Source: a virus
Length of the DNA stretch: 23,349 nucleotides
Reading direction: 5' to 3' (one strand)
IMG/VR virus record: IMGVR_UViG_3300040960_003708
Span: 1 to 23,349 of that record
Shown: positions 4,847 through 18,173 of the stretch, one piece after another
Layout of the letters: each line of letters opens with the position of its first letter
How positions within the stretch are numbered: position 1 is the first letter of the stretch
The notes under the pieces: model-generated
The model's database searches: none
The model's input: only the letters and a program-made list of their open reading frames with translations
Told to the model about the DNA's origin: nothing
Position numbers and translations under genes: made by a program

Positions 4847-4855
4847 ATCCGCTCC

Positions 4856-5140
4856 TTAACTCTTAAAGATGATGACCAGCAACAGGAGAACAAACGCCGC
4901 TGCACCCCCATAAATCATCATTTTTTGCTGCGAACTTTCACGTTGAGCCTGTTGCTCTTGACGGGTAGCCGCATCGATGCGCGCTTGTTCGGTGACCGTC
5001 GCGTTTTCTTTCGCTTTTGCTGAGGCGTTGGCTTCTGCTTCGCGACTGTTGTAATAAGACGTTGCACCGTTAACAAGGTCGGAGCCAAACTCACCTAAAT
5101 TGTCAGTGAAGCCGTCCCACCAATTGGATTGTTTTTCCAT
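4856..5140 (-). CDS. Tail-anchored virion membrane protein (94 aa)
   Basis: The N-terminus is aromatic and acidic (NWWDGFTDNLGEFGSDLV), the middle (about 30-72) is an Ala/Glu/Gln-rich helix, and the C-terminus is a single TM segment (MMIYGGAAAFVLLLLVIIFK). It lies 9 bp after the major capsid gene. Genes next to the P2-type capsid gene in PM2-like phages usually encode membrane proteins that link the capsid shell to the internal bilayer. The role here is inferred from topology and position. Confidence 0.65.
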   Translation of the reverse strand: MEKQSNWWDGFTDNLGEFGSDLVNGATSYYNSREAEANASAKAKENATVTEQARIDAATRQEQQAQRESSQQKMMIYGGAAAFVLLLLVIIFKS

Positions 5141-5149
5141 GATGCCCCC

Positions 5150-6046
5150 TTACACCGCTGGCAATTGCTCCACTTCGATGTAATCCATGAACACGTCAAT
5201 CGTGCCTGTGGTGCTCTTTTCAATCACGAGCTTGAGACTTGCTGCAGCGACAGGGATAAACGCTTGTTCGTTGGCAAAACCAGTGCTAACAAAATCAATC
5301 CAAACGCCTTTATCCGGTGCTTTTTCTTCGGTGAATCGTTCCATGTCAAAGCGCATGTCTTCGACATCGTGTTCCCAAATCACTTCGTTATCACGACGGA
5401 TAGAGATACGTGTAATGTCGTCGTTTTCACTTTCTAGCAGCATTGAACGCAGACGCACGTTTTGACCAACGATTGGGAACTCGTGACGTTCTTCACCCGT
5501 TTGGTTTTGAACAATTTGCGTTTCGGTATAACGCTGCTGAAAGAAACGCGTACCTTGGTAATCAACGGCTCGTGCTCGTGCGCTGAATTCCGGCACATCT
5601 GGATCACCTGACGCTTTCGGCTTAACGCCGATTTTCAGTACCAGTGTTTCGCCTGCTTGGTGAACCAATTCACCGCGGCGAATGCCTTGCAGTGTTCGCA
5701 TGGTTTCATCCGCAAACGGGATGATTAAGCGTGTTTTGCTTGCGCCATTGATGCCTTTGTTTTGGACGGGTAGACCTTTCTTGGTATCGCGTTTGTGGAA
5801 GAACGACGCATCGATACCAATGATCTCTTTGTTGTTGCGTTCAAGTGAAACACGGCCTAGACGTTTAAGCGGTAGGTCGGTTAACACTTCAATAGACGCA
5901 AACGCGTGAAGCTCTTTGATTTCCAAGATAGCTTTCTTGCCATACACGGCACTTGAGCGAAATGGGTCTAAATCAATAGGACGAACGTTGAACGCGCCTT
6001 TTACTGCTGCAACGATTGCAGCCATTTGTGCAGTTGGAGCTGCCAT
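5150..6046 (-). CDS. Major capsid protein, P2-like double jelly roll
   Basis: The protein is about 298 aa, compared with roughly 269 aa for PM2 P2, and mostly beta strand. Its C-terminal half carries a pattern I recognise from PM2 P2: an aromatic FF-x-Q segment, polar loops, a V-E/I-R-x-D-x-x-x-W hairpin, and a final S-L-K-L-V-I-E-K...T-I-D-V-F-M-D-Y-I-E-V strand pair resembling the last strands of P2. It lies in the late operon with a packaging ATPase upstream and small membrane proteins downstream, as expected for a membrane-containing icosahedral phage. The start at 6046 is chosen because GGGAG lies 9 nt upstream. An in-frame ATG at 6052 lies only 3 nt from it. The assignment rests on remembered similarity plus context. 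Confidence 0.75.
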   Translation of the reverse strand: MAAPTAQMAAIVAAVKGAFNVRPIDLDPFRSSAVYGKKAILEIKELHAFASIEVLTDLPLKRLGRVSLERNNKEIIGIDASFFHKRDTKKGLPVQNKGINGASKTRLIIPFADETMRTLQGIRRGELVHQAGETLVLKIGVKPKASGDPDVPEFSARARAVDYQGTRFFQQRYTETQIVQNQTGEERHEFPIVGQNVRLRSMLLESENDDITRISIRRDNEVIWEHDVEDMRFDMERFTEEKAPDKGVWIDFVSTGFANEQAFIPVAAASLKLVIEKSTTGTIDVFMDYIEVEQLPAV

Positions 6047-6066
6047 AGTCATGTACTCCCGATGAA

Positions 6067-6207
6067 TTAAAGACGGCCGCTATCCAAACCAAGCGCATCG
6101 CGTGGTTTGTCTAGTGCATCGACGTTTGCAATGACGGCAATAACAATCAGTGTTACCGCTACGGCAACACCGACGACTTTCCAATTTGCCTTAGATAAAT
6201 TAGGCAT
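6067..6207 (-). CDS. Small one-TM protein upstream of the capsid gene (46 aa)
   Basis: The ORF begins MPNLSKANWKVVGVAVAVTL, continues through a hydrophobic IVIAVIANV segment and ends with a polar DKPRDALGLDSGRL tail. AAGGG lies about 9 nt before this ATG, so I prefer it to the longer upstream reading (to 6303), which would run through the promoter/operator region. It is the first gene after the operator gap and immediately precedes the capsid gene. It is likely a virion membrane protein. Confidence 0.6.
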   Translation of the reverse strand: MPNLSKANWKVVGVAVAVTLIVIAVIANVDALDKPRDALGLDSGRL

Positions 6208-6338
6208 AGTTTCTAACCCTTTAGTAATGAGTAAATTAAATGCAATGTTGAACATGCCAACCTCTGTTGTTGTTCGGCATTTACGGTTAACAGGAGTCAT
6301 CACTATGGATAGGGAGGATTTGAGAGAGAAGGGGCTTT

Positions 6339-6370
6339 AACCTATAGGTTGAACGGGTAACCTATAGGTT
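6339..6370. promoter_or_regulatory. Twin perfect palindromes, candidate operator
   Basis: AACCTATAGGTT occurs twice (6339-6350 and 6359-6370). Each copy is a perfect 12-bp palindrome, and the centres are 20 bp apart, close to two helical turns. Flanking bases extend the pair to a 15-bp inverted repeat. No T-run follows on either strand, so a simple terminator is unlikely. The site lies just after the ATPase gene and upstream of the capsid genes, where a late promoter would be expected. A cooperative dimeric regulator is the likely ligand, possibly the small HTH protein at 11031-11303. Confidence 0.6.
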
Positions 6371-6385
6371 AAAATGTGAGGTGAA

Positions 6386-7159
6386 TCAGCGGTAATTGAG
6401 GGTAAGTTTCTTACCTGTTAGGCAGTTAAACGCCTTGTGTTCGACGTTGCCTATACCGTCACGGACAAGCATATATTCCGCAATGGGTTTACCAATCCGT
6501 TTCTTGTTGACCTTGGCAGAGGTTAACCCTGCGATAGTATTGAGGTCTATGCCTCGTTTATCCGCAAGCCATTCAGCATCAGCCAAAGTGTTAAGCGCAC
6601 CGATAAACCAAGTCGATGATTGAGACGTCACGGTTTTCGGTACTTCTTGGCCTTTTTGAAATACGGTATGGACAATCAATCCATACTGACGCCCACCACG
6701 CAAAAGTTCACCTGCTCGGCCTGATAACTTGCCGGAAGTTTCGACACAAGACGCCAGTTCTTCTATCACCACATGCAACTGCGGTGCGTTCCCGTTGCCA
6801 ACCGCCCAAACAACGGAACTGAAAAATTCCAGTTCTTCTCCCGTTGCTCCATCTTTCGGGAGGTAGGCCAGCTTGAACGGCTTACGCGCTTTACGCGCCG
6901 CGACCAATGATTTGATAAAGACCACCCGTGAAGATGTGCCGTGACATTGTTGGCCTTGGAACTTACCGCCAGCATAGTTTTGGTAAGGGTCGAAGAACAC
7001 CGCTTGCGAACCTTTCGAAACAAGCCCTAAATGTTTAACGGCGGAAGTCTTACCGCCGCCAGTACCCGCCACATAAATCGTATGTTCGGCATCGAGAGAT
7101 GGGTTTGAGTTGACAGGGTTAGGCAAGGGGAGTTTAGGCTGCTTCTTTTTCGCCATCAT
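6386..7159 (-). CDS. Genome-packaging ATPase, P9/HerA-FtsK type
   Basis: The 257-aa P-loop protein has a clear Walker A (GTGGGKTS, residues 32-39), a Walker B-like strand with acidic pair (LHVVIEE, about 128-134), and a conserved region R-Q-Y-G then F-Q-K-G-Q-E-V-P (about 157-174). The last matches the glutamine/sensor region of packaging ATPases of PRD1, PM2 and relatives. These enzymes pump DNA into a preformed membrane-containing capsid. The size fits the short P9-type ATPases. SD AAAGGGGG precedes tandem ATGs, and the 5' end overlaps the preceding gene by 26 bp. With the double-jelly-roll capsid gene it forms the hallmark pair of this virus class. Confidence 0.85.
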   Translation of the reverse strand: MMAKKKQPKLPLPNPVNSNPSLDAEHTIYVAGTGGGKTSAVKHLGLVSKGSQAVFFDPYQNYAGGKFQGQQCHGTSSRVVFIKSLVAARKARKPFKLAYLPKDGATGEELEFFSSVVWAVGNGNAPQLHVVIEELASCVETSGKLSGRAGELLRGGRQYGLIVHTVFQKGQEVPKTVTSQSSTWFIGALNTLADAEWLADKRGIDLNTIAGLTSAKVNKKRIGKPIAEYMLVRDGIGNVEHKAFNCLTGKKLTLNYR

Positions 7160-7583
7160 CGCCCCCTTTGTCGGCTTCCGCTTGTTTGATTGCCTTGGCG
7201 TTTTTAACGGTGATACGCGTTGAAATCACAAGGCCAATCACAGCAATGACAAGCGTTGCTTCCTCTAGATATTGGAAGCCCTCCAACGCAACGGAACCAT
7301 ACTTTTTAAGGACGGGCACCGATGCTTGGATCACTTCATCTTTGCCTCTTTCGTCAAAGCTAAACTCAATCTCATTTAGAGAGCTAATCGCCTGTTCAGT
7401 TAGGTTAAACATGCTCGATAGGAGTAACTCGATCGTTTCGCTAGAATCGACTTCAACCGTTTCTTGTGTTTCGGTTTCTTGCGATTCAGTGCTTTCCTGT
7501 TGCTCTAGCTGTTTGATCACGTTCCCGAAGTCACCCCATTCACTGTCGTTCGCTGCTTCAGCAATCAAGTTTGATTCATCCAT
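7134..7583 (-). CDS. Membrane protein with acidic Glu/Thr-rich region (149 aa)
   Basis: Start at 7583 is chosen because GAGG lies 6 nt upstream. A longer reading to 7691 lacks support and overlaps the preceding gene. The chain has an acidic repeat-like segment (QQESTESQETETQETVEVDSS, about 28-48, written in part), amphipathic helices, one TM segment (ATLVIAVIGLVISTRITV) and a charged tail. Its start overlaps the zinc-ribbon gene by 8 bp and its end overlaps the ATPase gene. A virion membrane or packaging-portal role is possible. The family is not recognised. Confidence 0.6.
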   Translation of the reverse strand: MDESNLIAEAANDSEWGDFGNVIKQLEQQESTESQETETQETVEVDSSETIELLLSSMFNLTEQAISSLNEIEFSFDERGKDEVIQASVPVLKKYGSVALEGFQYLEEATLVIAVIGLVISTRITVKNAKAIKQAEADKGGDDGEKEAA

Positions 7584-8103
7584 GGCTAACCTCAGCTTGC
7601 TCTTGTGGTTGTTGTGGGCGAGGTTTGAGTCTTTGCCATATCCAAACCAGAAACAGCAGCACTCCAAACGCAATGGCAATGCGCTTACCACTCAAAAAGG
7701 GCGTTTTTGTGTCGGTTTCTTCAACGGTTGTTTCAGTGCTTTCAACCTTATCGGGCAAGGCTTGAGGCTCGTTTTCGCTAATCGTTAAAGGCTCGCTAAG
7801 AACCAGGGACTCTTCGGTTGAATCAACCGTTACTTCAACACTGGGCTCAATGACTTCCAACTCAGTAGTGACTAGGTTGGAGTCCTGCGTAACGTGCTTC
7901 TCAACAAAAGAATGCACTTCCTTACTCATTGGGCTGTTACCACATTTAGGGCACTTGTAGTAAAGCAAACCTAGGTTTCGGTTGTTCTTTGGCGGTTCGC
8001 CTAGTTCAATGAGTTTACCTTCACCGACTTGGTGAACGGTTGCCACGGATTGGCAAACCGGACAACCCAAGTAACCGCGCACTGGATTGGCAACTTTAGC
8101 CAT
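7576..8103 (-). CDS. Membrane-anchored zinc-ribbon protein (175 aa)
   Basis: An N-terminal zinc ribbon is defined by C14-P-V-C17 and C51-P-K-C54. A long acidic Glu/Thr/Val-rich linker (about 75-135) follows, then one TM helix (IAIAFGVLLFLVWIW) and a Pro/Gln-rich tail. Four-cysteine ribbons in phage proteins bind nucleic acid or stabilise a protein contact. A membrane-tethered ribbon just upstream of the packaging ATPase suggests a part in DNA packaging or genome attachment to the virion membrane. That role is inferred. It overlaps the upstream gene's stop (AATGGCTAA) and so is probably translationally coupled. Confidence 0.65.
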   Translation of the reverse strand: MAKVANPVRGYLGCPVCQSVATVHQVGEGKLIELGEPPKNNRNLGLLYYKCPKCGNSPMSKEVHSFVEKHVTQDSNLVTTELEVIEPSVEVTVDSTEESLVLSEPLTISENEPQALPDKVESTETTVEETDTKTPFLSGKRIAIAFGVLLFLVWIWQRLKPRPQQPQEQAEVSHG

Positions 8104-8410
8104 TATTCACCTCCTGTGCTGCGAATAGCTCGGCCTTGTCTGACTCAACGCGCTCACGGTATTTGCTGCGCGCTGTCGTGTTGATTTTCTCCAAGGATTT
8201 AATGTGATTGATAATGTCAGGTGATAGGCCAAGCGCCTCAAGTGAGAATTTACCCGTCATGAGCATCTTTGTTGCTTTGCCAATGATCTCTTTTGGATCG
8301 ATGTTTTCTAGCTTCTTCAAATCATTTTGAATCGCGTTAGATAGTTGGTCTGCTGCATCCAGTGCAGCCAGCGAGTTATCGCACTCTTGAATAGAAAGTA
8401 GTTTTGTCAT
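8096..8410 (-). CDS. Hypothetical helical protein (104 aa)
   Basis: This soluble, mostly alpha-helical, charged ORF contains AADQLSNAIQNDLKKLENID and LGLSPDIINHIKSLEKINTT. The leader before its ATG, including the AGAGG Shine-Dalgarno, is a near copy of the leader of the next gene upstream (19 of 20 bases). It has no TM segment and no recognised family. It is the second gene of a group of small genes preceding the packaging module and may be regulatory or assembly-related. Confidence 0.6.
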   Translation of the reverse strand: MTKLLSIQECDNSLAALDAADQLSNAIQNDLKKLENIDPKEIIGKATKMLMTGKFSLEALGLSPDIINHIKSLEKINTTARSKYRERVESDKAELFAAQEVNNG

Positions 8411-8415
8411 TTTGT

Positions 8416-8435
8416 CCTCTATCTCTCGACTGTGG
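8416..8435 (-). repeat. Leader repeat, copy 1
   Basis: Minus-strand CCACAGTCGAGAGATAGAGG lies 5 nt before the ATG at 8410 and includes the Shine-Dalgarno AGAGG. Its 5' part also encodes the last codons and stop of the 80-aa gene. The partner is at 8667-8686 with one mismatch. The equal placement relative to two start codons suggests duplication or a shared translational control site. Confidence 0.6.
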
Positions 8436-8661
8436 AATATTTGTAAGTCATTTTGGCAAGCGCATACTTTAAATCGATCACATCAGAAGGTGTGACTCGG
8501 TAGTCTTCTGTTGTGGCGTACATGACAATGGCAACTTCTATCATGCAGCATAAGAGCTTCACATCACGGTCACAGACTTGCTTGCGCCACTTGCGTTTTA
8601 TTTGTTTACACAGAGTAAGGCGTACCTTTTGTAACTCGCAATTATTGAGGTTTCTAGTCAT
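8419..8661 (-). CDS. Hypothetical Cys-containing basic protein (80 aa)
   Basis: This small basic helical ORF begins MTRNLNNCELQKVRLTLCKQ and continues with IKRKWRKQVCDRDVKLLCCM. Five cysteines fall in the N-terminal half, with no clear metal-ribbon spacing. The leader with AGAGG 5 nt before the ATG repeats before the following gene. A DNA-binding or regulatory role is possible because of the basic N-terminus, but no HTH is evident. Family unknown. Confidence 0.55.
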   Translation of the reverse strand: MTRNLNNCELQKVRLTLCKQIKRKWRKQVCDRDVKLLCCMIEVAIVMYATTEDYRVTPSDVIDLKYALAKMTYKYSTVER

Positions 8662-8666
8662 ATTTC

Positions 8667-8686
8667 CCTCTGTCTCTCGACTGTGG
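8667..8686 (-). repeat. Leader repeat, copy 2
   Basis: Minus-strand CCACAGTCGAGAGACAGAGG lies 5 nt before the ATG at 8661. It starts directly after the stop of the 50-aa gene, so here it is non-coding, unlike copy 1, which doubles as coding sequence. Confidence 0.6.
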
Positions 8687-8839
8687 TTAGTTGCTTAGAA
8701 CAGCACTGAATACGCCAACAAACGCCCACGCGTAGACAATTGCAGGGACGTTCTCAAACAACCTTGGGTTTTTGTTCATATCTCGCCCCATCCAGTAGCC
8801 AGCTACGAACATTACAAACATGCCAATTTTCCATTCCAT
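8687..8839 (-). CDS. Small two-TM membrane protein (50 aa)
   Basis: The start at 8839 gives MEWKIGMFVMFVAGYWMGRD, then a polar loop (MNKNPRLFENVP) and a second hydrophobic helix (AIVYAWAFVGVFSAVL). The longer in-frame reading (to 8953) overlaps the upstream gene throughout and is less likely, although the Shine-Dalgarno at 8839 (AGG) is weak. The protein is probably a virion or host inner-membrane protein. Family not recognised. Confidence 0.5.
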   Translation of the reverse strand: MEWKIGMFVMFVAGYWMGRDMNKNPRLFENVPAIVYAWAFVGVFSAVLSN

Positions 8840-8849
8840 GGATAGCAAC

Positions 8850-9053
8850 CTAATAAAGTGAATCGTTGGCGGCTTCCAACGGTGTAAGTTTGTGAAGAAC
8901 TTGAACGTTAAGCGCGTGCTGTTCTCCAGTGAGCTGGCTCGCGATACGTACAAAGCTAAAGGTTTGAGTTTGGGAGGTAGGAGGCAAAACCGCTTTTTGA
9001 TAAAGCGTGAGTTTGCTGCCTTGGTGATCTAGTTTTTGTTGGAGAATAGACAT
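8850..9053 (-). CDS. Hypothetical protein, first gene of the main operon (67 aa)
   Basis: The ORF starts MSILQQKLDHQGSKLTLYQK and ends ANDSLY, and contains a strand-rich QTQTFSFVRIASQLTG segment. AAGGA lies 7 nt before the ATG at 9053, favouring this start over one 30 nt upstream. A -10-like TATACT lies about 60 nt upstream. It opens the minus-strand gene series that leads through the packaging and capsid genes. Function unknown. Confidence 0.55.
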   Translation of the reverse strand: MSILQQKLDHQGSKLTLYQKAVLPPTSQTQTFSFVRIASQLTGEQHALNVQVLHKLTPLEAANDSLY

Positions 9054-9618
9054 TACTTGTTCCTTAACTGACGTTAGAAACAAGTCGGGAGGTATTACGA
9101 AATCATCGGTTCAAAGTATACGGACTTCCAACAGACACTGAAAGCGCGTTTTTTCATCTGTCCTAAAATCTCGCCTCTTCTTTCTGCCAGAATCGTCGCG
9201 CAGCGACAGTGTTTTAGAATCACGTCCAATTCACTTCTAGATGTAGAGTATCCATCCTTGCGCTGTGGTGGTGGTGCGCACCAATGAAGTAGCCCCTAGC
9301 TCTGCTAGGAAATGGCACTTCTATCCCCATAATCCCCGATTTTGAGGGGATTAAATATAAGATCTTTATTATAATTTATTAGTTAGGTAGAAAGGTAATG
9401 CGCTAATTCTCTCGTGCTATGCAATAAACCTATAAACTCCGTATGCACTAACAAATAATAAGTGCTTAGAACGCTGCACGTCCTGTAGATAATTTTTGAA
9501 TAATGAGAAAATATCAGTGGGGAAAACCGCCTTGTTGACAGTTCATTGCACACATAATAAACAGTGTTTTGCTTTGGAATTCGCGTAAGGCTCCGGAGCT
9601 AACCGGATAGACTGGAGA
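9054..9618. other. Non-coding region, candidate replication origin
   Basis: No plausible gene lies in these 565 bp. The region follows repA directly, where IncFII-type plasmids keep their origin. It holds a 12-bp palindrome TGGTGCGCACCA (9272-9283), a CCTAGC-TCT-GCTAGG hairpin (9295-9309), a 7-bp stem AATCCCC/GGGGATT (9331-9352), an adjoining A/T-rich stretch (9350-9385) that could serve as an unwinding element, a half-match AACCTATA (about 9427) to the late operator, and a GCTCCGGAGC palindrome (9590-9599). I found no perfect DnaA box. The origin assignment is an inference from position and structure. Confidence 0.4.
9114..9143 (-). promoter_or_regulatory. Candidate promoter of the main minus-strand operon
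   Basis: Minus-strand TATACT (9114-9119) is preceded after 18 nt by a weak -35 (TTTCAG, 9138-9143). Transcription would begin about 50 nt before the ATG at 9053. The weak -35 suggests a need for an activator. Confidence 0.35.
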
Positions 9619-10428
9619 TTATGCGGAGAATCCGCAGGAAACGAGCCTCGCATTGACCATACGATCTAGTTCGTTCCCATTTAATAGGAGGTGTTCACCG
9701 CGCTTTTTCATGCGGTTAAAGATGATTTGAACGGCTCTAGAGCGGTCGGTTATCTTTGATATCGTACGCTTCAAGCAACCTTGCGTGATGTTTTTCGTTC
9801 TACGCTCAATTGTGCCTTCCCACAATGTATTTCGAACCGTTAGCAAGCGTTCGTGAAGGTTCCAACCCGTATTAGCAAACGCTTTTTCATCAGCCTTTCT
9901 AAACGCACTTTCAAGTTTCATTCCGGCAGTTGGTCCAGCAAGATACCCAAAATCGTCCTCAACCTTATAGACTTGGTTATAAGGTAAGCCTTGTTCATCA
10001 AATACTAATCCGGCCTTGGGTTCTGTTGGATCTTTATCGCCAGTGAAAGCGGGAGTAATTACACGCATTTTAACCATAAGAGCGAGTAAGCGTGAAACCG
10101 TAGATTGATCAACACCAATCATTTCCGCTATTTGTCCTTGTGTGCCATTACTTGAAAATGTGCGCGTTTCTAAACAGACATTTGCAGCAATCCACATACA
10201 AAGACGCTTAAAGTTGTTACGGCGGTTCTGTTTTACGAATGTTTCGATACCATGATCGGCTTTGAGACGGTTTATAATGGAAGGATGGGATAGGGCGCCG
10301 TGCTTCATAAATACACGGAAAACGTCGGATTTGCCCTTGTGAAGATATGGTTGCTTACCATTAGCCGCAGCTTCTGCCGCGGCTTTGTTGTATTTGGTAA
10401 CAAGTTCTAAGTAATCCGACTGACTCAT
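9619..10428 (-). CDS. repA: Replication initiator, IncFII RepA-like
   Basis: The 269-aa protein has a basic N-terminus and a winged-helix segment (about 97-130, core TQGQIAEMIGVDQSTVSRLL) similar in layout to the DNA-binding domain of IncFII/IncB RepA plasmid initiators. A basic C-terminal half (RRTKNITQGCLKRTISKITD, then RMKKRGEHLLL) follows. Such proteins bind the origin and start theta replication. The Shine-Dalgarno is weak and the start lies 5 nt after the stop of the upstream gene, suggesting translational coupling, as known for tap-repA in IncFII plasmids. PM2 itself uses a rolling-circle initiator, so this is a different replication module attached to a PM2-type virion module. The family call is by remembered pattern. 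Confidence 0.6.
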   Translation of the reverse strand: MSQSDYLELVTKYNKAAAEAAANGKQPYLHKGKSDVFRVFMKHGALSHPSIINRLKADHGIETFVKQNRRNNFKRLCMWIAANVCLETRTFSSNGTQGQIAEMIGVDQSTVSRLLALMVKMRVITPAFTGDKDPTEPKAGLVFDEQGLPYNQVYKVEDDFGYLAGPTAGMKLESAFRKADEKAFANTGWNLHERLLTVRNTLWEGTIERRTKNITQGCLKRTISKITDRSRAVQIIFNRMKKRGEHLLLNGNELDRMVNARLVSCGFSA

Positions 10429-10433
10429 GGATG

Positions 10434-10778
10434 TTAAGCTGCCTCGCTAGTTTCAAGCAGCTTGTCTAACTCAGCATTGGCAACTTTGAAGAAGTCTACG
10501 ATTTCATTGATATCATCATCTAGACAGATCCCACTAATGACATGCAAATCGTATTTTTTCTCGATTTCAGTTGGGTTTCGTCGAATGTAACTCGGAAGAA
10601 CTGACTTATCGTAGCCGTCTATGTAGATAGACAAACCTACATGGTTTACATGCCCAGAGTAATCAAACAACACATCATGCTTAGTAGTGTTCGTAATATC
10701 GATTGAACGTTGCAGCAAATCTGATGTTAGGGCTCTGACTTTTTCTTGTTGGCGAGGGCTTTTACGTGCATTTGACAT
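10434..10778 (-). CDS. Hypothetical protein co-transcribed with repA (114 aa)
   Basis: The protein starts MSNARKSPRQQEKVRALTSD with a basic N-terminus. The middle is beta-rich (HDVLFDYSGHVNHVGLSIYIDGYD) and the C-terminus is an acidic helix (NEIVDFFKVANAELDKLLE). AAGGA lies about 9 nt before the ATG. It is encoded directly upstream of repA with a 5-nt gap and downstream of a long hairpin, so it may help control or assist replication. No family recognised. Confidence 0.6.
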   Translation of the reverse strand: MSNARKSPRQQEKVRALTSDLLQRSIDITNTTKHDVLFDYSGHVNHVGLSIYIDGYDKSVLPSYIRRNPTEIEKKYDLHVISGICLDDDINEIVDFFKVANAELDKLLETSEAA

Positions 10779-10996: not shown

Positions 10997-11030
10997 GAAC
11001 TGCGTTATGCTTAGTTGTGGAGGTAAAAAC

Positions 11031-11303
11031 ATGATTACCACGAGAGACTTACTAAACCGATTAATGGTTGAAAAACAATTGCTTAGCTTGCGTGAGGTTT
11101 CAAGATTCTTAGAAGTTAGCCATGGTACCGTTCATTTGTGGAGCAAAGGCGGAACAATGAGTGATGATATGGCTTGTGAAATCGCGGAAATGCTTGGTTT
11201 AGATGTAGAACTTACAATGTTAGCAATTATCGCTGAACGCTCTAAAAATCAGGGAGCAATTAACGCTTTAAGACGTCTGACAGATGATAAAAAGATTGCC
11301 TGA
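11031..11303 (+). CDS. Small HTH regulator, DUF3693-like phage protein
   Basis: The 90-aa protein begins MITTRDLLNRLMVEKQLLSL and contains a helix-turn-helix (about 22-45: LREVSRFLEVSHGTVHLWSK), then a helical region (SDDMACEIAEMLGLDVELTM) and a basic tail. This build matches the DUF3693 family of small phage DNA-binding proteins found in Vibrio phages. The start is set by GGAGGT 6 nt before ATG at 11031. It is divergent from the repA operon and ends in a strong terminator next to the inovirus junction. It is likely the repressor or lysogeny switch of the capsid-encoding element. Confidence 0.65.
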   Translation: MITTRDLLNRLMVEKQLLSLREVSRFLEVSHGTVHLWSKGGTMSDDMACEIAEMLGLDVELTMLAIIAERSKNQGAINALRRLTDDKKIA

Positions 11304-11311
11304 ATTATGGG

Positions 11312-11367
11312 GCAAAAAGTAAAGGTAACTGATTGATTCATATGGCTTAGTTACCTTTCTTTTTTGC
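11312..11367 (+). terminator. Long hairpin terminator at the end of the HTH gene
   Basis: GCAAAAAGTAAAGGTAACT pairs with AGTTACCTTTCTTTTTTGC, 17 of 19 positions, with an 18-nt loop. The inner 10 bp are perfect, and CTTTTTT follows the core stem. It ends 7 bp before the Xer site at 11375 and so forms the last recognisable feature of region A. Confidence 0.8.
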
Positions 11368-11374
11368 CTCCCTT

Positions 11375-11406
11375 GGTGCGCATTATGGGTGAGTGTTATG
11401 TTGAGT
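11375..11406 (+). other. XerC/XerD dif-like attachment site, left junction
   Basis: XerC arm GGTGCGCATTA (11375-11385), a 10-nt centre TGGGTGAGTG, then XerD-like arm TTATGTTGAGT (11396-11406), which matches the usual TTATGTTAAAT at 9 of 11. The first base of the XerC arm (G) differs from the A between the two copies, as expected if this arm came from the recipient replicon. Confidence 0.8.
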
Positions 11407-11509
11407 GGTTTGCCAACGGCCTAGAACGCCGAAAAGGTGGGCGGTGCGAACTGGCTCAGCCGAACTTGTTCGTGGTGCAGATGAGAGAGAATCGTTTTCA
11501 AGCGATAGC

Positions 11510-11538
11510 CCGTAACATAACACACATAATGCGCCACT
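11510..11538 (-). other. Inverted dif-like partner site (attP2-like)
   Basis: On the minus strand this reads AGTGGCGCATTA, TGTGTG, TTATGTTACGG: an XerC arm with one inserted G, a 6-nt centre and a XerD-like arm. It is inverted relative to the site at 11375-11406, with 103 nt between. On single-stranded phage DNA the two pair to form a stem with a 4-nt bulge in the central region. This is the arrangement used by CTXphi for Xer integration. Confidence 0.75.
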
Positions 11539-11541
11539 TTG

Positions 11542-11579
11542 AAAATGACATACCAGAGCTTCTAGTATGTCATTTTTTT
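11542..11579 (+). terminator. Terminator of the inovirus late operon
   Basis: AAAATGACATAC and GTATGTCATTTT form a perfect 12-bp stem with an 11-nt loop followed by a T-run. In the circular phage, and at the copy boundary, it lies downstream of zot and the mini-ORFs, so it ends that transcript. Confidence 0.85.
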
Positions 11580-11584
11580 ACGTA

Positions 11585-11751
11585 CCGAAATGTTCTGAAC
11601 GTGTTGCAGCGAGCATTTCGGGGAGGGGCCCGCTTGCGGGAGGGACCTCGAAAGCGCAGCAAAACCCCCGTCTAGTATTACGGGGGTAAATTCCACTGAA
11701 TCATCAGTGTTCGCCGTGTATTCGCAAGCGTAGCGCGCCAGTGTTTGAGCG
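11585..11751. other. Inovirus intergenic region, origin and packaging hairpins
   Basis: A series of hairpins: CCGAAATG/CATTTCGG (11585-11621), CCCGC-TT-GCGGG (11629-11640) and ACCCCCGT/ACGGGGGT (11664-11687), plus a TAGCGC/GCGCTA stem near 11733-11752. On the minus strand the C/G hairpin is followed by TTTT and may end the repressor transcript. In filamentous phages such hairpin clusters hold the strand origins and the packaging signal. Which hairpin does what cannot be told here. No gene is supported. Confidence 0.55.
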
Positions 11752-12102
11752 CTAGCGAGTCTTATCTGCTGAGAAGTTGTCTCTTGCTTTGTTACTTTGA
11801 TTTCTTAGGTACAAACCTTCTACCATTATCGAGAGTGACTCGATCTCTGATTCATTAAAGTCTCCAATTGCTGAACTTATTTTCTCTATTAGTCTTTCAT
11901 GTGGGCTTTGTTCCGTTCCCAGGACTTCATTTATTGAAACACCTAGCCGTTTAGCGATCATCATTAGCTCTGATGCCTTTGGTTCTGTCTTTCCTGATTC
12001 CCAGTTCATTACTGTTTTTGCTGATGCTCCGACTGATTTTGCCATCTCCAGCTGTGTGACTCCTTTTTCCTCTCGGAGTCTCTTAATGTTCTCGTTTAGC
12101 AT
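11752..12102 (-). CDS. rstR: RstR-like phage repressor, copy 1
   Basis: The 116-aa protein has an N-terminal XRE/HTH_3 domain (MLNENIKRLREEKGVTQLEM, then AKSVGASAKTVMNWESGKTEP) with the classic Q-x-x-x-A and W-E-x-G motifs. A C-terminal helical oligomerisation region follows. It is transcribed away from rstA and represses the divergent rstA promoter, giving immunity to related phages. Start 12102 is chosen because GAGGGG lies 7 nt upstream. An upstream GTG (12135) would lie before the transcript start predicted from the -10 at 12136-12141. Confidence 0.85.
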   Translation of the reverse strand: MLNENIKRLREEKGVTQLEMAKSVGASAKTVMNWESGKTEPKASELMMIAKRLGVSINEVLGTEQSPHERLIEKISSAIGDFNESEIESLSIMVEGLYLRNQSNKARDNFSADKTR

Positions 12103-12135
12103 GTTAAACCCCTCATTGAGTCCATGTTTTTTCAC

Positions 12136-12141
12136 ATTATA
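12136..12141 (-). promoter_or_regulatory. -10 element of the repressor promoter, copy 1
   Basis: Minus-strand TATAAT, exact consensus, about 34 nt before the repressor start. The -35 at 17-nt spacing (ATACTG) is weak. Confidence 0.45.
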
Positions 12142-12165
12142 AGGAGTGTTTTTTCATACAGTATC

Positions 12166-12211
12166 TTGACAAGGTAAATTTATTTACCCAAGATATGCAA
12201 TAAATTTACTC
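12166..12211 (+). promoter_or_regulatory. rstA promoter with repressor operators, copy 1
   Basis: A perfect -35 TTGACA (12166-12171) is followed by the palindrome GGTAAATTTATTTACC (12173-12188; 7-bp arms, 2-nt centre) in the spacer. A weak -10-like CAAGAT lies 17 nt after the -35. A related site GAGTAAATTTATT lies on the other strand at about 12199-12211. Repressor binding between -35 and -10 would block initiation, consistent with RstR control. Confidence 0.6.
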
Positions 12212-12231
12212 TTGACAGGTTTTCAGGGAAC

Positions 12232-13311
12232 ATGAAAAAACAGGTATTCACACCAGAAGAATTGCAAATCGACACTGAAGCAAGTCCGTTTGTGTTTGTG
12301 GACTACCTTTCGTGGACTATCCCTTATTCCTCACTTCGTCATGCTCATAAATCTGACCTTTCATCTGTGTCATGGGCTCCAATTCCTAAAGCTAACTACC
12401 GCATGGCAAAAACTCCTGAGCAGAAAGAAAAGCTAATCGAGCGTTACAAGCAACAGTGGAACGTTGCCATGATGGAGCGTTTGGAAGTTTTTTGTCTTCA
12501 CGTTCTTGGCCTTCGCATGTCTCCTTGGCGTGGTAAAGGTTTGTACGGTTATGAAGATTCATGTCACTTGATGACTAAACATTCAAATAAGCATGTCGGA
12601 TTTGTTGCTCTAGGTGGTAACCGTGGAACCTGTTATTTCCAAATTGAGGGGCTAGGGTGCAAACACCTTTTTGACCACACAAGCGCGTTCCGCTTGCATT
12701 GGTGGTTGGATCTTCTTGATTGCAATCGCCTTTCACGTATCGACCTTGCGGTCGATGACTTTCATGGTTTGTTCGGTCGTGAGTATGCGAAAAAAGCTTA
12801 TGCAGATGACGCTTTTAGAACATCTGACCGTGGTTGTGGCCCTAGTGCCGGTGAACGCTTTTTCGCAGAACCATCTGGAAAAGTTATCAATGAATCCTTT
12901 GAAGTTGGCAATCGTAAATCTCGAATCTACTGGCGTATCTATAACAAGGCCGCGCAGCTTGGCTTGGATATGTTTTGGTTTCGTAGCGAGTGCGAACTTA
13001 AAGAAATGCCGCTCGATGTTCTTTTGAATATCAGTGGTTATTTTGCGGGAATCTGCGCTTATAGCGCATCAATCGTGTCCAGCTCGCCAGTCAAGGTGGT
13101 CACAAAAAAGAAACAAGTCGCGCTCGATATGCACGGGCGCATTCGTTGGGCTCGTCGTCAAGTAGGTCGTACCTTAGCGGATATTGCTAAGTACTTAGAC
13201 GGTGATTTAGAGAAAGTTTTCGGGATGCTTGTTTCAAAGGATCTCCATGATGACTTATTGGATCTTCCCGACACATATAAACACATAATCAAAGAGATAA
13301 TGGAGAATTAG
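12232..13311 (+). CDS. rstA: RstA-like rolling-circle replication initiator, copy 1
   Basis: The 359-aa protein belongs to the replication initiation factor (Rep_trans, phage RstA) family. Key elements are S-R-I-D-L-A-V-D-D-F-H-G (about 168-179, metal-binding acidic pair), Y-W-R-I-Y-N-K (about 233-239, Tyr237 a candidate nicking residue) and F-R-S-E-C-E-L-K (about 250-257). It would nick the plus-strand origin of the double-stranded form to start rolling-circle replication. AGGGA lies 6 nt before the ATG. It is expressed from the RstR-controlled promoter and followed 1 bp later by the rstB-like gene. Confidence 0.88.
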   Translation: MKKQVFTPEELQIDTEASPFVFVDYLSWTIPYSSLRHAHKSDLSSVSWAPIPKANYRMAKTPEQKEKLIERYKQQWNVAMMERLEVFCLHVLGLRMSPWRGKGLYGYEDSCHLMTKHSNKHVGFVALGGNRGTCYFQIEGLGCKHLFDHTSAFRLHWWLDLLDCNRLSRIDLAVDDFHGLFGREYAKKAYADDAFRTSDRGCGPSAGERFFAEPSGKVINESFEVGNRKSRIYWRIYNKAAQLGLDMFWFRSECELKEMPLDVLLNISGYFAGICAYSASIVSSSPVKVVTKKKQVALDMHGRIRWARRQVGRTLADIAKYLDGDLEKVFGMLVSKDLHDDLLDLPDTYKHIIKEIMEN

Positions 13312-13312
13312 C

Positions 13313-13651
13313 ATGGCTGTTCGTTACGTTTTAACAGGTGGCACTTATTCAAAAGGTGTTGGTAAATCATCAGGTAAGCAGTACGAAATTGGTCGTTTGT
13401 TTGCGGGTAAAGCTCTTAAGCCTTGGCAAAATGATAACGGTGCTCAAATTGCTTTTGGCATTGAGTCTGTTGAAGTTCCTTTTATGCCTAATCCAACACT
13501 CTTGGCAAAGTTCGAGACGACAATGTGTCCTTGCTTAGTTGAGTTCGAGTACGAACCTGACCCAGAAGATCCACGCCGTAATCTTGTTTGTGACTTCAAA
13601 GTCATTCGTAGTCTTTTCGATAATCCAGTAGAAAACGAAAAATCAAAGTAG
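13313..13651 (+). CDS. rstB: RstB-like ssDNA-binding protein, copy 1
   Basis: The 112-aa basic, beta-rich protein begins MAVRYVLTGGTYSKGVGKSS and has G-K-Q-Y-E-I-G-R-L and V-E-V-P-F motifs typical of inovirus gpV/RstB-type proteins. These proteins coat the newly made single strand and hold it ready for assembly. It directly follows the initiator gene, the standard position for this protein. Function is by family position and pattern. Confidence 0.7.
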   Translation: MAVRYVLTGGTYSKGVGKSSGKQYEIGRLFAGKALKPWQNDNGAQIAFGIESVEVPFMPNPTLLAKFETTMCPCLVEFEYEPDPEDPRRNLVCDFKVIRSLFDNPVENEKSK

Positions 13652-13658
13652 GTGACGT

Positions 13659-13895
13659 ATGGCTGCATGTGTGAATTTTACATCAGAAGGTTTTCTCAAA
13701 AGAACCGACGCGACCACATGCAAAGCTTACGTTCTTGTCAGTTCTTCGGAGTACAACGATTTATCAGCACATAAGTCGGTGTCTCCAGCAGAAGCATCCG
13801 CGGCTATTGGCTTTGGTTTCGCTGTTGTCTTTGGCCTTGGATATTTAAGCACTTACGCAGTTGGTGTAAGTAAACGTGTAATAAAAAAAATCTAG
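13659..13895 (+). CDS. Small membrane protein before the coat gene, copy 1
   Basis: The 78-aa protein has a Cys-containing polar N-terminus, a single TM segment (AAIGFGFAVVFGLGYLSTYA) and a basic C-terminus (SKRVIKKI). No cleavable signal is evident. The arrangement resembles a small coat or pVII/pIX-like protein, and its basic C-terminus parallels that of the major coat protein. It lies 8 bp before the major coat gene. Minor coat protein is the likeliest role. Confidence 0.6.
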   Translation: MAACVNFTSEGFLKRTDATTCKAYVLVSSSEYNDLSAHKSVSPAEASAAIGFGFAVVFGLGYLSTYAVGVSKRVIKKI

Positions 13896-13903
13896 GTAAC
13901 ATT

Positions 13904-14122
13904 ATGAAAAAATTCAATCTTAAACGCGCTTTAGCAGTTGCGGTTCTTCTTGGTTCAACTTTTCCAGCTTTCGCAGAAGGTTTTGATATTGGTACGTACT
14001 TCGGTGCTATCAACCTTGCGGGTGTTGCGGCTGCTATCGGTGGTATTGGTATTGTTGTTGTTGGTATCGCTATGTCTGAGAAAGGCATCACCATTGCTAA
14101 GCGTGTAATCGGTAAAGCGTAA
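13904..14122 (+). CDS. cep: Major coat protein pVIII (Cep-like), copy 1
   Basis: The 72-aa precursor has a signal peptide ending A-F-A (residues 22-24), giving a mature chain of 48 aa: acidic N-terminus (EGFDIGTYFG), a 20-residue Gly/Ala/Val helix (LAGVAAAIGGIGIVVVGIAM) and a basic C-terminus (KGITIAKRVIGKA). This is the standard build of filamentous-phage major coat proteins, where the basic end faces the DNA. It sits after the replication genes and before a terminator. Confidence 0.9.
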   Translation: MKKFNLKRALAVAVLLGSTFPAFAEGFDIGTYFGAINLAGVAAAIGGIGIVVVGIAMSEKGITIAKRVIGKA

Positions 14123-14133
14123 GGCTCTTAATT

Positions 14134-14226
14134 ATGGTTTTCGCTTTATTCGACATGCAGCTAACAATTTATGTTCTACTTGGTGGCATGGCTGGATTTA
14201 TAGCGTCTCTCAATTTCAGAGGTTAA
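14134..14226 (+). CDS. 30-aa mini-ORF after the coat gene, copy 1
   Basis: The ORF starts MVFALFDMQLTIYVLLGGMA and ends GFIASLNFRG. It is almost entirely hydrophobic with a short polar tail. AAGG lies 9 nt upstream, and the ORF starts 11 nt after the coat stop, before the terminator. The size and topology fit pVII/pIX minor caps, which sit at the end first extruded. The assignment is inferred. Confidence 0.55.
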   Translation: MVFALFDMQLTIYVLLGGMAGFIASLNFRG

Positions 14227-14239
14227 CCAATAATATAAA

Positions 14240-14262
14240 AGGGGCTTCGGCCTCTTTTTTTA
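14240..14262 (+). terminator. Coat-gene terminator, copy 1
   Basis: AGGGGC-TTCG-GCCTCT stem with a stable TTCG loop, followed by a T-run. It lies between the coat module and pIII, as in other filamentous phages, where it keeps coat transcripts abundant relative to the downstream genes. Confidence 0.85.
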
Positions 14263-14273
14263 TAGGTGTTTCT

Positions 14274-15650
14274 ATGACTTCAAATAAATACGTTTATATA
14301 TTATTCACCTTGCTTTTTTTATCTTTCGACTCTTTGGCGGAAATTCGTAAAATAGTTAGTAGTGGTCGTAACTCCAATATTGTTGAAGAGTGTCTTGGTT
14401 ATACAATTGGTGATTATTTTGATACTGGATCATTGCCTAGCGTTACGGGTAAGAAATATCAAAGTGGGAATTATTCATTTGAGTGTATGAGTTCTCAATA
14501 TAATGGAGGAACACTTTCTGTTAATGTCCTTCGTGATGACCGTAGATGGTTTTCTGGTTCGTTTTCCACTAATGGCGCAGCTAGTTGTCCTGATGGTCAG
14601 GAAATTAACCCCACTACGGGGAAGTGCGAGGATAAACCATGTCCAGAGGGGCAGCATAGAGATGAGGAGGGTCAATGTACTTGTAATGATGGCAGTAAAC
14701 CAAATATGTTAGGCGTCTGCGATGATTACTGTAATTCAGAAGAATACCAGCAATTGCGTCGGGAGAAGCTTATTATGTGCAGCAATACTGGCGGTAAGTT
14801 TTCTTCTCAATGTAATAGCCGAACCGATGTGACTTTTAGTTGTGATAAAAAAAGTGATCCCGACGGTGGAGGTGATGACGGTGATGGTGGTGACGGAACT
14901 GGCGGTGGTACTGGTGACGGTGGTGACGGAACGGGCGGTGGTTCTGGTGATGGTGGTGACGGAACGGGTGATAATCAGGATTTTGGTCAGGTTGTTAATG
15001 CCATTGATAACATGAGAACGGATAACAACACTCGTCTTGATAAGTTGCTTTCTAGGCTCGATGTTAACTCATCCAATGAGGCTAAAAGCTTAGACGGTAT
15101 TAGTGATTCGATTGCAGCGGCCAGTGATAAGAATGAGCAGTCGTTAGACCAAATTAATAGCTCTATCGGTAATCTAAATAATACTCTTAGAGACTCAAAT
15201 AATATTGCTCGCGAGCTTTCGTCTAATGAGGTTTCAGCGATTGATGGTGTTAATAGTTCTATTGGTCGTTTAGATAGTACGTTGAAAGGTCTTGCCGATG
15301 ATATTACATCCACTAATTCTAGTAGTGTAGGGGTGGGGGTTTGTGGTGTTGGAACTTGTGAATCCTTTTATACAGCTAAATATCCAGAAGGTGTTCAAGG
15401 CGTTATAAGTGCGCATTACAATTCTATTTCCGGAACGGTTACCAGTGGGATAAAGAATGTATTCGGAACGGTTAATTTAAGTGGCGGTTCACGTCCTGCT
15501 TATTCTGCTAGTCTTGATTTTGGCTTTGCTAACTATGGCACTTTCGATATTTATCGAGAGGCTCATTTAAATGTTGTATTTACATTTCTCAGAGCTTTCT
15601 TTTTGGTTTGCTGTATTTTCTACTGTCGCAGCTTAGTATTTGGAGGTTAA
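14274..15650 (+). CDS. orfU: Adsorption protein pIII (OrfU-like), copy 1
   Basis: The 458-aa protein has a signal peptide (about 1-22) and a Cys-rich N-terminal region with 12 cysteines between 40 and 190, including an EGF-like run C-P-D-G...C-E-D-K-P-C-P-E-G...C-T-C. A Gly/Asp-rich linker (about 195-234) contains three 11-residue repeats GDGGDGTGGG(T/S). A helical repeat region (about 240-345) follows, with units such as SLDGISDSI and AIDGVNSSI. A C-terminal TM anchor (HLNVVFTFLRAFFLVCCIFY) completes it. This is the N-domain, glycine linker and membrane anchor layout of filamentous adsorption proteins, which bind a pilus or receptor and TolA and release the virion. AGGTG lies 5 nt before the ATG. 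Confidence 0.85.
   Translation: MTSNKYVYILFTLLFLSFDSLAEIRKIVSSGRNSNIVEECLGYTIGDYFDTGSLPSVTGKKYQSGNYSFECMSSQYNGGTLSVNVLRDDRRWFSGSFSTNGAASCPDGQEINPTTGKCEDKPCPEGQHRDEEGQCTCNDGSKPNMLGVCDDYCNSEEYQQLRREKLIMCSNTGGKFSSQCNSRTDVTFSCDKKSDPDGGGDDGDGGDGTGGGTGDGGDGTGGGSGDGGDGTGDNQDFGQVVNAIDNMRTDNNTRLDKLLSRLDVNSSNEAKSLDGISDSIAAASDKNEQSLDQINSSIGNLNNTLRDSNNIARELSSNEVSAIDGVNSSIGRLDSTLKGLADDITSTNSSSVGVGVCGVGTCESFYTAKYPEGVQGVISAHYNSISGTVTSGIKNVFGTVNLSGGSRPAYSASLDFGFANYGTFDIYREAHLNVVFTFLRAFFLVCCIFYCRSLVFGG
14880..14978 (+). repeat. 33-nt repeats in the pIII linker, copy 1
   Basis: Three imperfect 33-nt units encode GDGGDGTGGGT, GDGGDGTGGGS and GDGGDGTGDN. They make the flexible linker of pIII. Tandem units of this kind expand or shrink by slippage. 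Confidence 0.7.
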
Positions 15651-15653
15651 GCA

Positions 15654-15965
15654 ATGGATTGGTTAATTAATGCTTTCAATAGGATTCTGGCTTTTCTTTA
15701 TAGTCTTGTTTTAACTATTATCGACGCAATTAGTGATATTTTTGCTTATTTATTTGATTCTATGTTGAAAGCGGTTGATTTGATAATTTCCGCTGTAATG
15801 ACTTCTTTGTCCGCTATTCCTATTCCAGATACTGTCCCTTTGCCTAGTGGCGTTGCGTGGGTTGCTTCTCAGCTTGGCGTTCCTCAGATGCTTGTGATGA
15901 TTACGGCATGTTTGGTTATTCGTGTTGGTCTGCAATTGATCCCGTTTGTGAGGTTAGGCTCATGA
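15654..15965 (+). CDS. ace: pVI-like minor coat protein (Ace-like, DUF2523), copy 1
   Basis: The 103-aa protein begins with a hydrophobic helix (MDWLINAFNRILAFLYSLVL), has a second (IDAISDIFAYLFDSMLKAVD), a Pro-rich loop (IPIPDTVPLPSG) and a C-terminal helix (MLVMITACLVIRVGLQLI). This three-segment pattern with a P-rich loop is the DUF2523/pVI family. It joins pIII to the filament end. GGAGG lies 8 nt upstream, inside the pIII stop region, and its end overlaps zot by 4 bp. Confidence 0.8.
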   Translation: MDWLINAFNRILAFLYSLVLTIIDAISDIFAYLFDSMLKAVDLIISAVMTSLSAIPIPDTVPLPSGVAWVASQLGVPQMLVMITACLVIRVGLQLIPFVRLGS

Positions 15966-17107
15966 TTTACGCTTTGGTTGGTCGTCCACGTTCTGGCAAG
16001 TCTTACGAGTCTGTTGTTTTTCATATCATTCCAGCGGTTAAAGCGGGTCGCAAGGTCATCACTAACATTCCTCTTAACATCGAGAAGTTTAGAAAGGTGT
16101 TTGGTGATTTATCTGATTTGATTGAGGTTCGTGAGTTTCGATTTGATGATTTTGGACAAGCTGAACGTCCTTTCAGTAAACCAGAAGATTACCTTTGCGA
16201 ATGGCGTGATGAAAATGGTGTCGGTCCCTTGTATGTCATCGATGAGGCACATCTAGTTTTACCCCGACAATGTCACGTTGAGATTCTAGAGTTTTACTCG
16301 ATGCATGGTCATTACGGTATCGATATTGTTTTGTTGACTCAGAATCTTCGTAAAGTTAACCGTGATATTCGTGACATGGTGGAAACAACGCACCAGTGTA
16401 TTAAGAACACGCATCTTGGTACAGACAAGACGTATACCAAGAAAATGTATTTGGGTAATGAGACTCGCGGCGAACCTGTGAGCCAAACACCAAGGAACTA
16501 CGATAAGAATTACTTTGGTTTCTATAAGTCTCACACTGCCAGTTCTCAAGCGGTTATCGAGGCTCAAGCGCAGGATGTGAAAAGCGTAAAGGATCATTGG
16601 TCAGTAAAGTTCGGTAAGGTTTTTATCGTCGGTGGTTTGATTTATTTGGTAGGCGTTTACTTTTTCATGTTTCGTGGTGATTCCGAGGAAGATACAGCAC
16701 CAGAACCAGAGCAGGCCGAACAAGTCGAAATCGCGGAGGCTAAATCTAAGTCTCAGGAACGTGAGCAAAATCCTAGTTCATTTGGCTTGCTTGCTGATTT
16801 CCAGTTTTACATTTCGGGTTGGTCTAAGCAGCTGGTGCAGACGAATGGCCAGTTCAATAGTGATTTGAGTTTCTATCGTGTTTACGTGGATGTTTACACC
16901 AATGAAACTTATGAATTCACATTAGAGCATACGGATTTGATAAAGCTTGGTTACGCTTTTAAGCAGCTATCCGAATGCGTTTACCAGGTTAAGTATTACG
17001 ATTCTAGCCGGATAGTTACTTGCAAGTATCGTGATGAAAACCAGTTGGATGAACCGGAGGATACGAGTCTTGATGTTCTTGCTTCAGTTCCAAGTGTATC
17101 AATATAG
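15962..17107 (+). CDS. zot: Zot/pI assembly ATPase, copy 1
   Basis: The 381-aa protein has Walker A GRPRSGKS (7-14), Walker B LYVIDEAH (90-97), the conserved L-L-T-Q-N-L region (about 124-129) and a single TM helix (about 219-237). A Glu/Gln-rich periplasmic linker and a C-terminal domain with two cysteines follow. This is the Zot/pI family that exports ssDNA and assembles the filament at the inner membrane. The start at 15962 overlaps the pVI gene by 4 bp (ATGA-type). The earlier in-frame codon at 15857 would lie inside pVI. I see no zonula-occludens receptor-binding octapeptide as in V. cholerae Zot. Confidence 0.88.
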   Translation: MIYALVGRPRSGKSYESVVFHIIPAVKAGRKVITNIPLNIEKFRKVFGDLSDLIEVREFRFDDFGQAERPFSKPEDYLCEWRDENGVGPLYVIDEAHLVLPRQCHVEILEFYSMHGHYGIDIVLLTQNLRKVNRDIRDMVETTHQCIKNTHLGTDKTYTKKMYLGNETRGEPVSQTPRNYDKNYFGFYKSHTASSQAVIEAQAQDVKSVKDHWSVKFGKVFIVGGLIYLVGVYFFMFRGDSEEDTAPEPEQAEQVEIAEAKSKSQEREQNPSSFGLLADFQFYISGWSKQLVQTNGQFNSDLSFYRVYVDVYTNETYEFTLEHTDLIKLGYAFKQLSECVYQVKYYDSSRIVTCKYRDENQLDEPEDTSLDVLASVPSVSI

Positions 17108-17179
17108 ATTGTTTCCCCAATTGATACCGCTCGCCGCAGCTCGAATAAGCGAAGCGTCTGAGAGTGAGGAAGCGGAATA

Positions 17180-17221
17180 ATGTATGAAGTTGATTTTTGG
17201 TGCGTTCACACCGGAGCTTAA
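17180..17221 (+). CDS. 13-aa mini-ORF after zot, copy 1
   Basis: MYEVDFWCVHTGA with a GAGGAAG Shine-Dalgarno-like sequence about 9 nt upstream. It may be a leader peptide or chance. Listed because the spacing is good and it precedes two further mini-ORFs. Confidence 0.25.
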   Translation: MYEVDFWCVHTGA

Positions 17222-17224
17222 TTT

Positions 17225-17317
17225 ATGGAATGGATGCGCGATGCGTTTGATTGGTTTATGTTGATAGGTTTTATAGTGTTGGTTCTTGGTTTGGTTGGAG
17301 GTCGAGCGAGTGATTGA
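17225..17317 (+). CDS. 30-aa mini membrane ORF, copy 1
   Basis: MEWMRDAFDWF followed by the hydrophobic MLIGFIVLVLGLVGG and a polar tail RASD. One TM helix with a charged N-terminus, the size of pVII/pIX. GGAG lies about 10 nt upstream. It overlaps the next mini-ORF by 8 bp. Confidence 0.55.
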   Translation: MEWMRDAFDWFMLIGFIVLVLGLVGGRASD

Positions 17318-17408
17318 TTTTATTGTTGAGCATCTTTACGAGATTCTAGGTCTTTGGGTGTTTGGTCTGGTTATTGTTGCTAATGGTTTCAAAAAGCAGC
17401 TGCCTTAG
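17310..17408 (+). CDS. 32-aa mini membrane ORF ending in the attachment site, copy 1
   Basis: GTG start, then IDFIVEHLYEILGLWVFGLV and IVANGFKKQLP. One TM helix with a basic C-terminus, again pVII/pIX-like. SD-like GGAGGTCGAG lies upstream within the previous ORF. Its TAG stop is formed by the first bases of the XerC arm (17407-17408). A second minor coat protein, or an internal membrane peptide, are the options. Confidence 0.5.
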   Translation: MIDFIVEHLYEILGLWVFGLVIVANGFKKQLP

Positions 17409-17438
17409 TGCGCATTATGGGTGAGTGTTATGTTGAGT
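17407..17438 (+). other. XerC/XerD attachment site between the two copies
   Basis: AGTGCGCATTA, a 10-nt centre TGGGTGAGTG and TTATGTTGAGT. The XerC arm is identical to the V. cholerae dif1 arm as I remember it. This is the phage's own version, differing at base 1 from the left junction. Confidence 0.8.
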
Positions 17439-17541
17439 GGTTTGCCAACGGCCTAGAACGCCGAAAAGGTGGGCGGTGCGAACTGGCTCAGCCGAACTTG
17501 TTCGTGGTGCAGATGAGAGAGAATCGTTTTCAAGCGATAGC

Positions 17542-17570
17542 CCGTAACATAACACACATAATGCGCCACT
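17542..17570 (-). other. Inverted dif-like partner site, copy 2
   Basis: Same sequence as 11510-11538, with 103 nt separating it from the site at 17407-17438. Confidence 0.75.
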
Positions 17571-17573
17571 TTG

Positions 17574-17611
17574 AAAATGACATACCAGAGCTTCTAGTAT
17601 GTCATTTTTTT
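17574..17611 (+). terminator. Late-operon terminator at the copy boundary
   Basis: Same 12-bp stem and T-run as 11542-11579. It ends the transcript of copy 1's zot and mini-ORFs and so insulates the second copy. Confidence 0.85.
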
Positions 17612-17616
17612 ACGTA

Positions 17617-17783
17617 CCGAAATGTTCTGAACGTGTTGCAGCGAGCATTTCGGGGAGGGGCCCGCTTGCGGGAGGGACCTCGAAAGCGCAGCAAAACCCC
17701 CGTCTAGTATTACGGGGGTAAATTCCACTGAATCATCAGTGTTCGCCGTGTATTCGCAAGCGTAGCGCGCCAGTGTTTGAGCG
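17617..17783. other. Origin/packaging hairpin region, copy 2
   Basis: Identical hairpin series to copy 1 (CCGAAATG/CATTTCGG, CCCGC/GCGGG, ACCCCCGT/ACGGGGGT). Two origins in direct repeat mean that initiation at one and termination at the other can release a complete single-stranded phage genome. Confidence 0.55.
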
Positions 17784-18134: not shown

Positions 18135-18167
18135 GTTAAACCCCTCATTGAGTCCATGTTTTTTCAC

Positions 18168-18173
18168 ATTATA
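18168..18173 (-). promoter_or_regulatory. -10 element of the repressor promoter, copy 2
   Basis: Minus-strand TATAAT at the same relative position as in copy 1. Confidence 0.45.

Follow-up and report, generated by a model that had tools for sequence, protein, structure and literature searches.

How did two unrelated viruses come to lie end to end in a single virus record? The record analysed here, 23,349 bp in its full length and henceforth called the window, holds a tailless PM2/NO16-like prophage in its left 11.4 kb (region A) and a CTX-type inovirus in two copies in its right half (Table 1). Our answer is that two unrelated prophages were very probably stacked by two successive Xer integrations at one dif, most likely a chromosomal one. 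Stacks of this kind have been described before in marine Vibrio; here one is resolved at the level of single bases. Both ends of the record fall exactly on stop codons, that of a minus-strand ORF at position 1 and that of a small ORF at position 23349; prophages trimmed out of longer contigs should look like this, and closed circles should not. The left attachment site and the distal inovirus junction lie beyond the record ends, our search of the window found no left dif-like site inside it, and the flanking genes are known from relatives alone.

Table 1. Features of the window, with the matches or remarks belonging to each
Feature	Position	Strand	Match or remark
Lipoprotein-like accessory gene, left end of tailless prophage	1..711	-	
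Tailless (PM2/NO16-like) prophage body: late/structural operon and early genes	836..10778	-	Pfam P2_N/P2_C; PHROG packaging ATPase, endolysin
Endolysin-like protein	1491..2030	-	phrog_873, E 4e-49
ORF	5150..6052	-	PF25513, 1.5e-15; PF18628, 1.4e-11
Packaging ATPase (P9-like)	6386..7159	-	phrog_2666, 5.8e-54
269-aa winged-helix protein, likely an exchangeable replication initiator (putative function)	9619..10428	-	HTH matches only
Small HTH repressor-like gene marking the right end of the tailless prophage	11007..11303	+	phrog_4441/phrog_638
Conserved terminator-like hairpin between repressor and Xer site	11309..11370	+	RNA fold -28.9 kcal/mol, z -6.2
XerC arm GGTGCGCATTA of the recipient (the right-hand arm of the tailless prophage)	11375..11385	+	Abuts inovirus attP
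CTX-type inovirus prophage copy 1: repressor, RstA-like, pIII-like, Zot	11376..17406	+	PF02486, 1.6e-16; PF05707, 4.6e-30
Inovirus attP1: 10-bp centre; degenerate D-like XerD arm TTATGTTGAGT	11386-11395; 11396-11406	+	
Inovirus attP2 GTGGCGCATTA-TGTGTG-TTATGTTACGG	11510..11537	-	Inverted relative to attP1
Inovirus own XerC arm AGTGCGCATTA, tandem junction between copies	17407..17417	+	
Inovirus copy 2	17407..23349	+	Record end cuts the copy ~90 bp short of the unit end

Region A encodes both a double jelly-roll capsid protein (P2) and a P9-type packaging ATPase, the pair by which we place it among the PM2-like viruses (Vinavirales), and the prophage body is syntenic with a prophage on chromosome 2 of the Vibrio genome G113. 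The initial annotation had credited region A with a plasmid initiator and with no integrase. The second statement holds, as no recombinase family was found among the region-A proteins scanned. The first does not: the 269-aa protein matches winged-helix-type/HTH DNA-binding domains only and no replication-initiator family, and it has no match in the PDB or in viral contigs, plasmids or phages. Homologues (65-77%) stand at the same place in G154, G220, G070 and G122, and another module stands in its place in G103, G039 and G116; on the basis of this position and module exchange we regard it as a likely initiator. The lipoprotein-like gene at the left end has homologues in 22 of 228 Vibrio genomes, several of which adjoin dif or the left end of a P2 prophage (e.g. 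in G033, G130 and G135). The gene recurs in many species beside dif or P2 prophage ends, as if it were a shared cargo of dif-using elements.

The right half of the window encodes an RstA-type initiator and a Zot/pI ATPase and carries inverted attP sites, two in number and dif-like, which base-pair with each other in the (+) strand; these are the features by which we class it as a CTX-type inovirus. Its RstA matches that of V. anguillarum VAIphi (VAI1/VAI2) at 92.8% and that of CTXphi at 78%. In the (+) strand DNA fold, attP1 (together with the arm abutting it, 11375-11406) pairs with attP2 at a z of -3.0. The two copies stand head to tail with a spacing of 6032 bp and show only two in-register differences over 5950 bp. 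As placed by eye, one difference (11370/17402) lies upstream of the unit, while the other (11375/17407) is the first base of the XerC arm. Since the copies differ at this base, the left arm comes from the recipient, as the initial annotation had read from the contrast between the left arm and the arm between the copies.

What, then, was the recipient site? By itself, the 11-bp arm is not significant (27 matches at two or fewer mismatches vs 22.9 expected), and a perfect arm also occurs by chance at position 15408, within the minor-coat-like gene. The arm counts as more than chance because of its position. We searched the 228 Vibrio genomes with the repressor, read the sequence downstream of each of its 16 close relatives, and found a Xer site after the repressor stop in 15 of them, at 73-75 bp in 14 and at 84 bp in one, G026 being the sole relative without it. 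The arm in the window lies at the same distance (~75 bp), the sequence preceding it aligns closely with that of the relatives, and the terminator-like hairpin is kept in them with some compensatory changes. The site is an intact dif-like site with no inserted element in 13 of the 16, and in two others an XerC arm with a 7-bp spacer is followed by another element. The right ends of this family of small tailless prophages can therefore be recognised simply by a repressor with a Xer site 75 bp behind it.

The site entered by the inovirus had been described as non-standard, but GGTGCGCATTA-N6-TTATGTTAAAT is present in 20 of the 228 Vibrio genomes, where GGTGCG is a common chromosomal dif allele. 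A tailless prophage in G225 has GGTGCGCATTA as its arm on the right and AGTGCGCATTA at its left junction, which means that in this genome GGTGCGCATTA arrived with the phage. Dif-region chromosomal genes flank all seven tailless-prophage loci that we examined, with DUF2861/TraF-like genes on the left and SUI1 on the right in six of them. Intact sites are followed on the right by SUI1, DUF3319 and a recombinase-like gene, and the prophages are preceded on the left by TraF-like and DUF2861 genes; we take these SUI1/DUF3319 and TraF-like/DUF2861 flanks as the dif region of the second chromosome. On chromosome 2 of G113, a region-A relative (P2 69%) has a dif-like site on either side, the two being 11.4 kb apart. 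Such sites mark both prophage borders in G225 as well, and also in G220, G122 and G033, where the left one has a 7-bp spacer. G116 has two copies, of which the one on contig 1 occupies a dif-like site and the other lies on contig 2. Among 72 P2 loci, 15 lie within 20 kb of a dif-like site (41 on a contig with such a site), and dif is thus not the sole target at which P2 prophages integrate but one among several.

Xer-like sites also appear in other settings. At G116:C2:380159 (L154), a tailless prophage of the same family occupies a secondary site, AGTGCGCATTA-TTCCTA-TTATGTTAAAC, away from dif; similar sites are found in G016, G181, G206 and G025, and sites with a TTCCTA centre, such as GGTGTTCATTA-TTCCTA-TTATGTTAAAC, recur in several Vibrio genomes. 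An inverted TTATGGTAAAT half-site in ATTTACCATAAAATACCTAATAATCAG context is conserved ~110-190 bp to the right of most Vibrio dif sites; it is found with many of them, on either chromosome as well as on two large plasmids (e.g. G220:C2:897330, G080:C1:1387263 and L051-L057). On a 199-kb conjugative plasmid of V. nigripulchritudo (L118), a P2-type prophage stands between a dif-like site and a variant with a 7-bp spacer (9489 and 21375), an arrangement that suggests Xer integration into a plasmid dif.

The stack of tailless prophage end, Xer junction and filamentous phage is repeated in two genomes (G103 and G039) and two IMG/VR records (L147 and L148). G103 runs from chromosome-2 genes through a tailless remnant (rep and repressor), the junction AGTGCGCATTA-TGCAGAC-TTATGTTCAAT, an inovirus and an intact dif to SUI1. 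G039 matches this stack as far as the intact dif, L147 is the same element as G103, and in L148 the tailless end is followed by a Zot-bearing inovirus. The inovirus of G103, G039 and L148 belongs to another subfamily and has a 7-bp-spacer junction. The exact junction of tailless end and CTX-type attP occurs in none of the 228 Vibrio genomes, so that this inovirus type in this precise site is unrepeated there. G154 contains two tailless prophages in tandem; at the junction between them, GGTGCGCATTA follows the first repressor by 74-75 bp. In G130:C2 (~805-832 kb) the order is opposite to that in the window, with two inovirus-like attP1/attP2 units immediately to the left of a tailless prophage.

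Among the alternatives, the same stack might sit on a large dif-bearing plasmid or chromid instead of the main chromosome, as P2 prophages are found near dif-like sites, with the same flank, on the 199-kb V. nigripulchritudo plasmid and on a 336-kb V. europaeus plasmid, the dif-like site of which reads GGTGCGCATTA-CGTGCA-TTATGTTAAAT. We give this reading a slim chance, for the relatives that share the cassette of rep, repressor and site (G154, G220, G070, G122 and G033) lie on contigs of 1.1-2.0 Mb by terminus-type genes. A slimmer one goes to the reading that the initial annotation had preferred, a free plasmid-prophage in which region A is circular and self-replicating and has a multimer-resolution (cer/psi-like) site of its own that the inovirus occupies. 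The inovirus has indeed entered a Xer site where a capsid-encoding element ends, and this part of the proposal stands. A free plasmid as the recipient would agree with the lack of an integrase among the region-A proteins and with a P2-type relative that is an 11.9-kb circular plasmid in V. gazogenes, but that plasmid is without a dif-like site, the GGTGCG start is shared with chromosomal dif sites, and the record ends on stop codons on both sides, as cut-out prophages do. Moreover, those relatives sharing the right-end cassette whose flanks were read sit integrated beside chromosomal dif genes. Genes typical of the terminus region on both sides had been named beforehand as speaking against a plasmid; relatives have them on both sides, and the window stops short of its own flanks. 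Serial Xer integration at dif, which the initial annotation had held in reserve, is the better reading, since relatives with the geometry of repressor, 75 bp and site sit at chromosomal dif. An assembly chimera, in which an abundant inovirus replicative form was artificially joined to the end of region A, would fit the identity of the two tandem copies and the abruptness of the change at the site, but it is scarcely credible. The change coincides with the boundary of XerC cleavage and comes with an arm base specific to the recipient, the shared arm of only ~11 bp is too short for a mis-join, and real recombination is favoured by two tandem copies with distinct arms and by the recurrence of this layout in G103, G039 and L148.

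For stacking by two successive Xer integrations, we propose the following course of events. The tailless phage, having no integrase gene, would first have integrated through XerCD at dif, leaving at its right end a composite site made of the phage XerC arm and the host centre and XerD arm. The CTX-type inovirus would have come second, its (+) strand folding the two inverted attP sites into one XerC substrate, and would have entered this right-hand site; such folding has been described for CTXphi, the integration of which is irreversible (PMC4246890). Recombination at dif leaves the XerC arm of the recipient on the left of the newcomer and that of the newcomer on its right, so that entry into the tailless right-hand site would account for a left junction that keeps GGTGCGCATTA and for AGTGCGCATTA between the copies. 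A working dif, consisting of AGTGCGCATTA, the host centre and the XerD arm, is predicted just right of copy 2. The left junction of a CTX-type prophage is no substrate in double-stranded DNA (PMC4246890). A newcomer would therefore enter the right-hand site, from which we infer that the tailless phage arrived first and the inovirus second.

The same proposal has consequences for excision. The spacer of attP1 is too long for a double-stranded reaction, so we expect the inovirus to be inserted irreversibly and to use its tandem copies for producing phage. The inovirus divides the site at the right end of the tailless prophage, whose excision would now require its left site and the distal dif; this prophage could then leave only with the inovirus copies, or not at all. 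Hybrid excision has been reported for VGJphi::CTXphi (PMC4246890). In relatives, the tailless prophage has a single VGJphi-like left junction with a 7-bp spacer; that it can still excise here with the distal dif and carry along the otherwise irreversible inovirus seems unlikely to us. If it did, a double-stranded tailless phage and a filamentous one, members of two viral realms, would move together as a hybrid. Dif is a landing place common to viruses from different realms, and the resolved arms point to their order of arrival. A CTX-type inovirus in the tailless right junction is predicted to split the exit site, and one virus may trap the other or ride along with it.

Tailless and filamentous prophages are known to share Vibrio dif sites, with at least 30 co-occupancies across Vibrionaceae (PMC11630473). 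In the published V. cyclitrophicus case the tailless phage interrupts the filamentous one (PMC11630473), whereas in the window a CTX-type inovirus lies in the tailless right junction; in addition, the dif-targeting tailless phages of that study regularly carried integrases, and we found none in region A. NO16 prophages, temperate tailless vibriophages of the 'Asemoviridae', resemble region A in their PM2-like capsid and ATPase genes, their dif-like sites and their proposed integration by XerCD (PMC9966536). The region-A capsid probably belongs to a different branch, all its P2 matches in the phage collection being less than 30% identical. CTXphi and VAIphi (PMC4246890, PMC7412436) share with the inovirus of the window the order of RstA and Zot, the inverted attP pair, the dif-like integration sites and the tandem copies, but the centre of attP1 is 10 bp here instead of 12 and the recipient is the junction of a tailless prophage. 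VGJphi::CTXphi (PMC4246890) offers a parallel in arrangement, for there too an irreversible CTX-type prophage has a working dif on one side and, on the other, the att site of a Xer element that is reversible; in our case the outer element would be a tailless double-stranded DNA phage.
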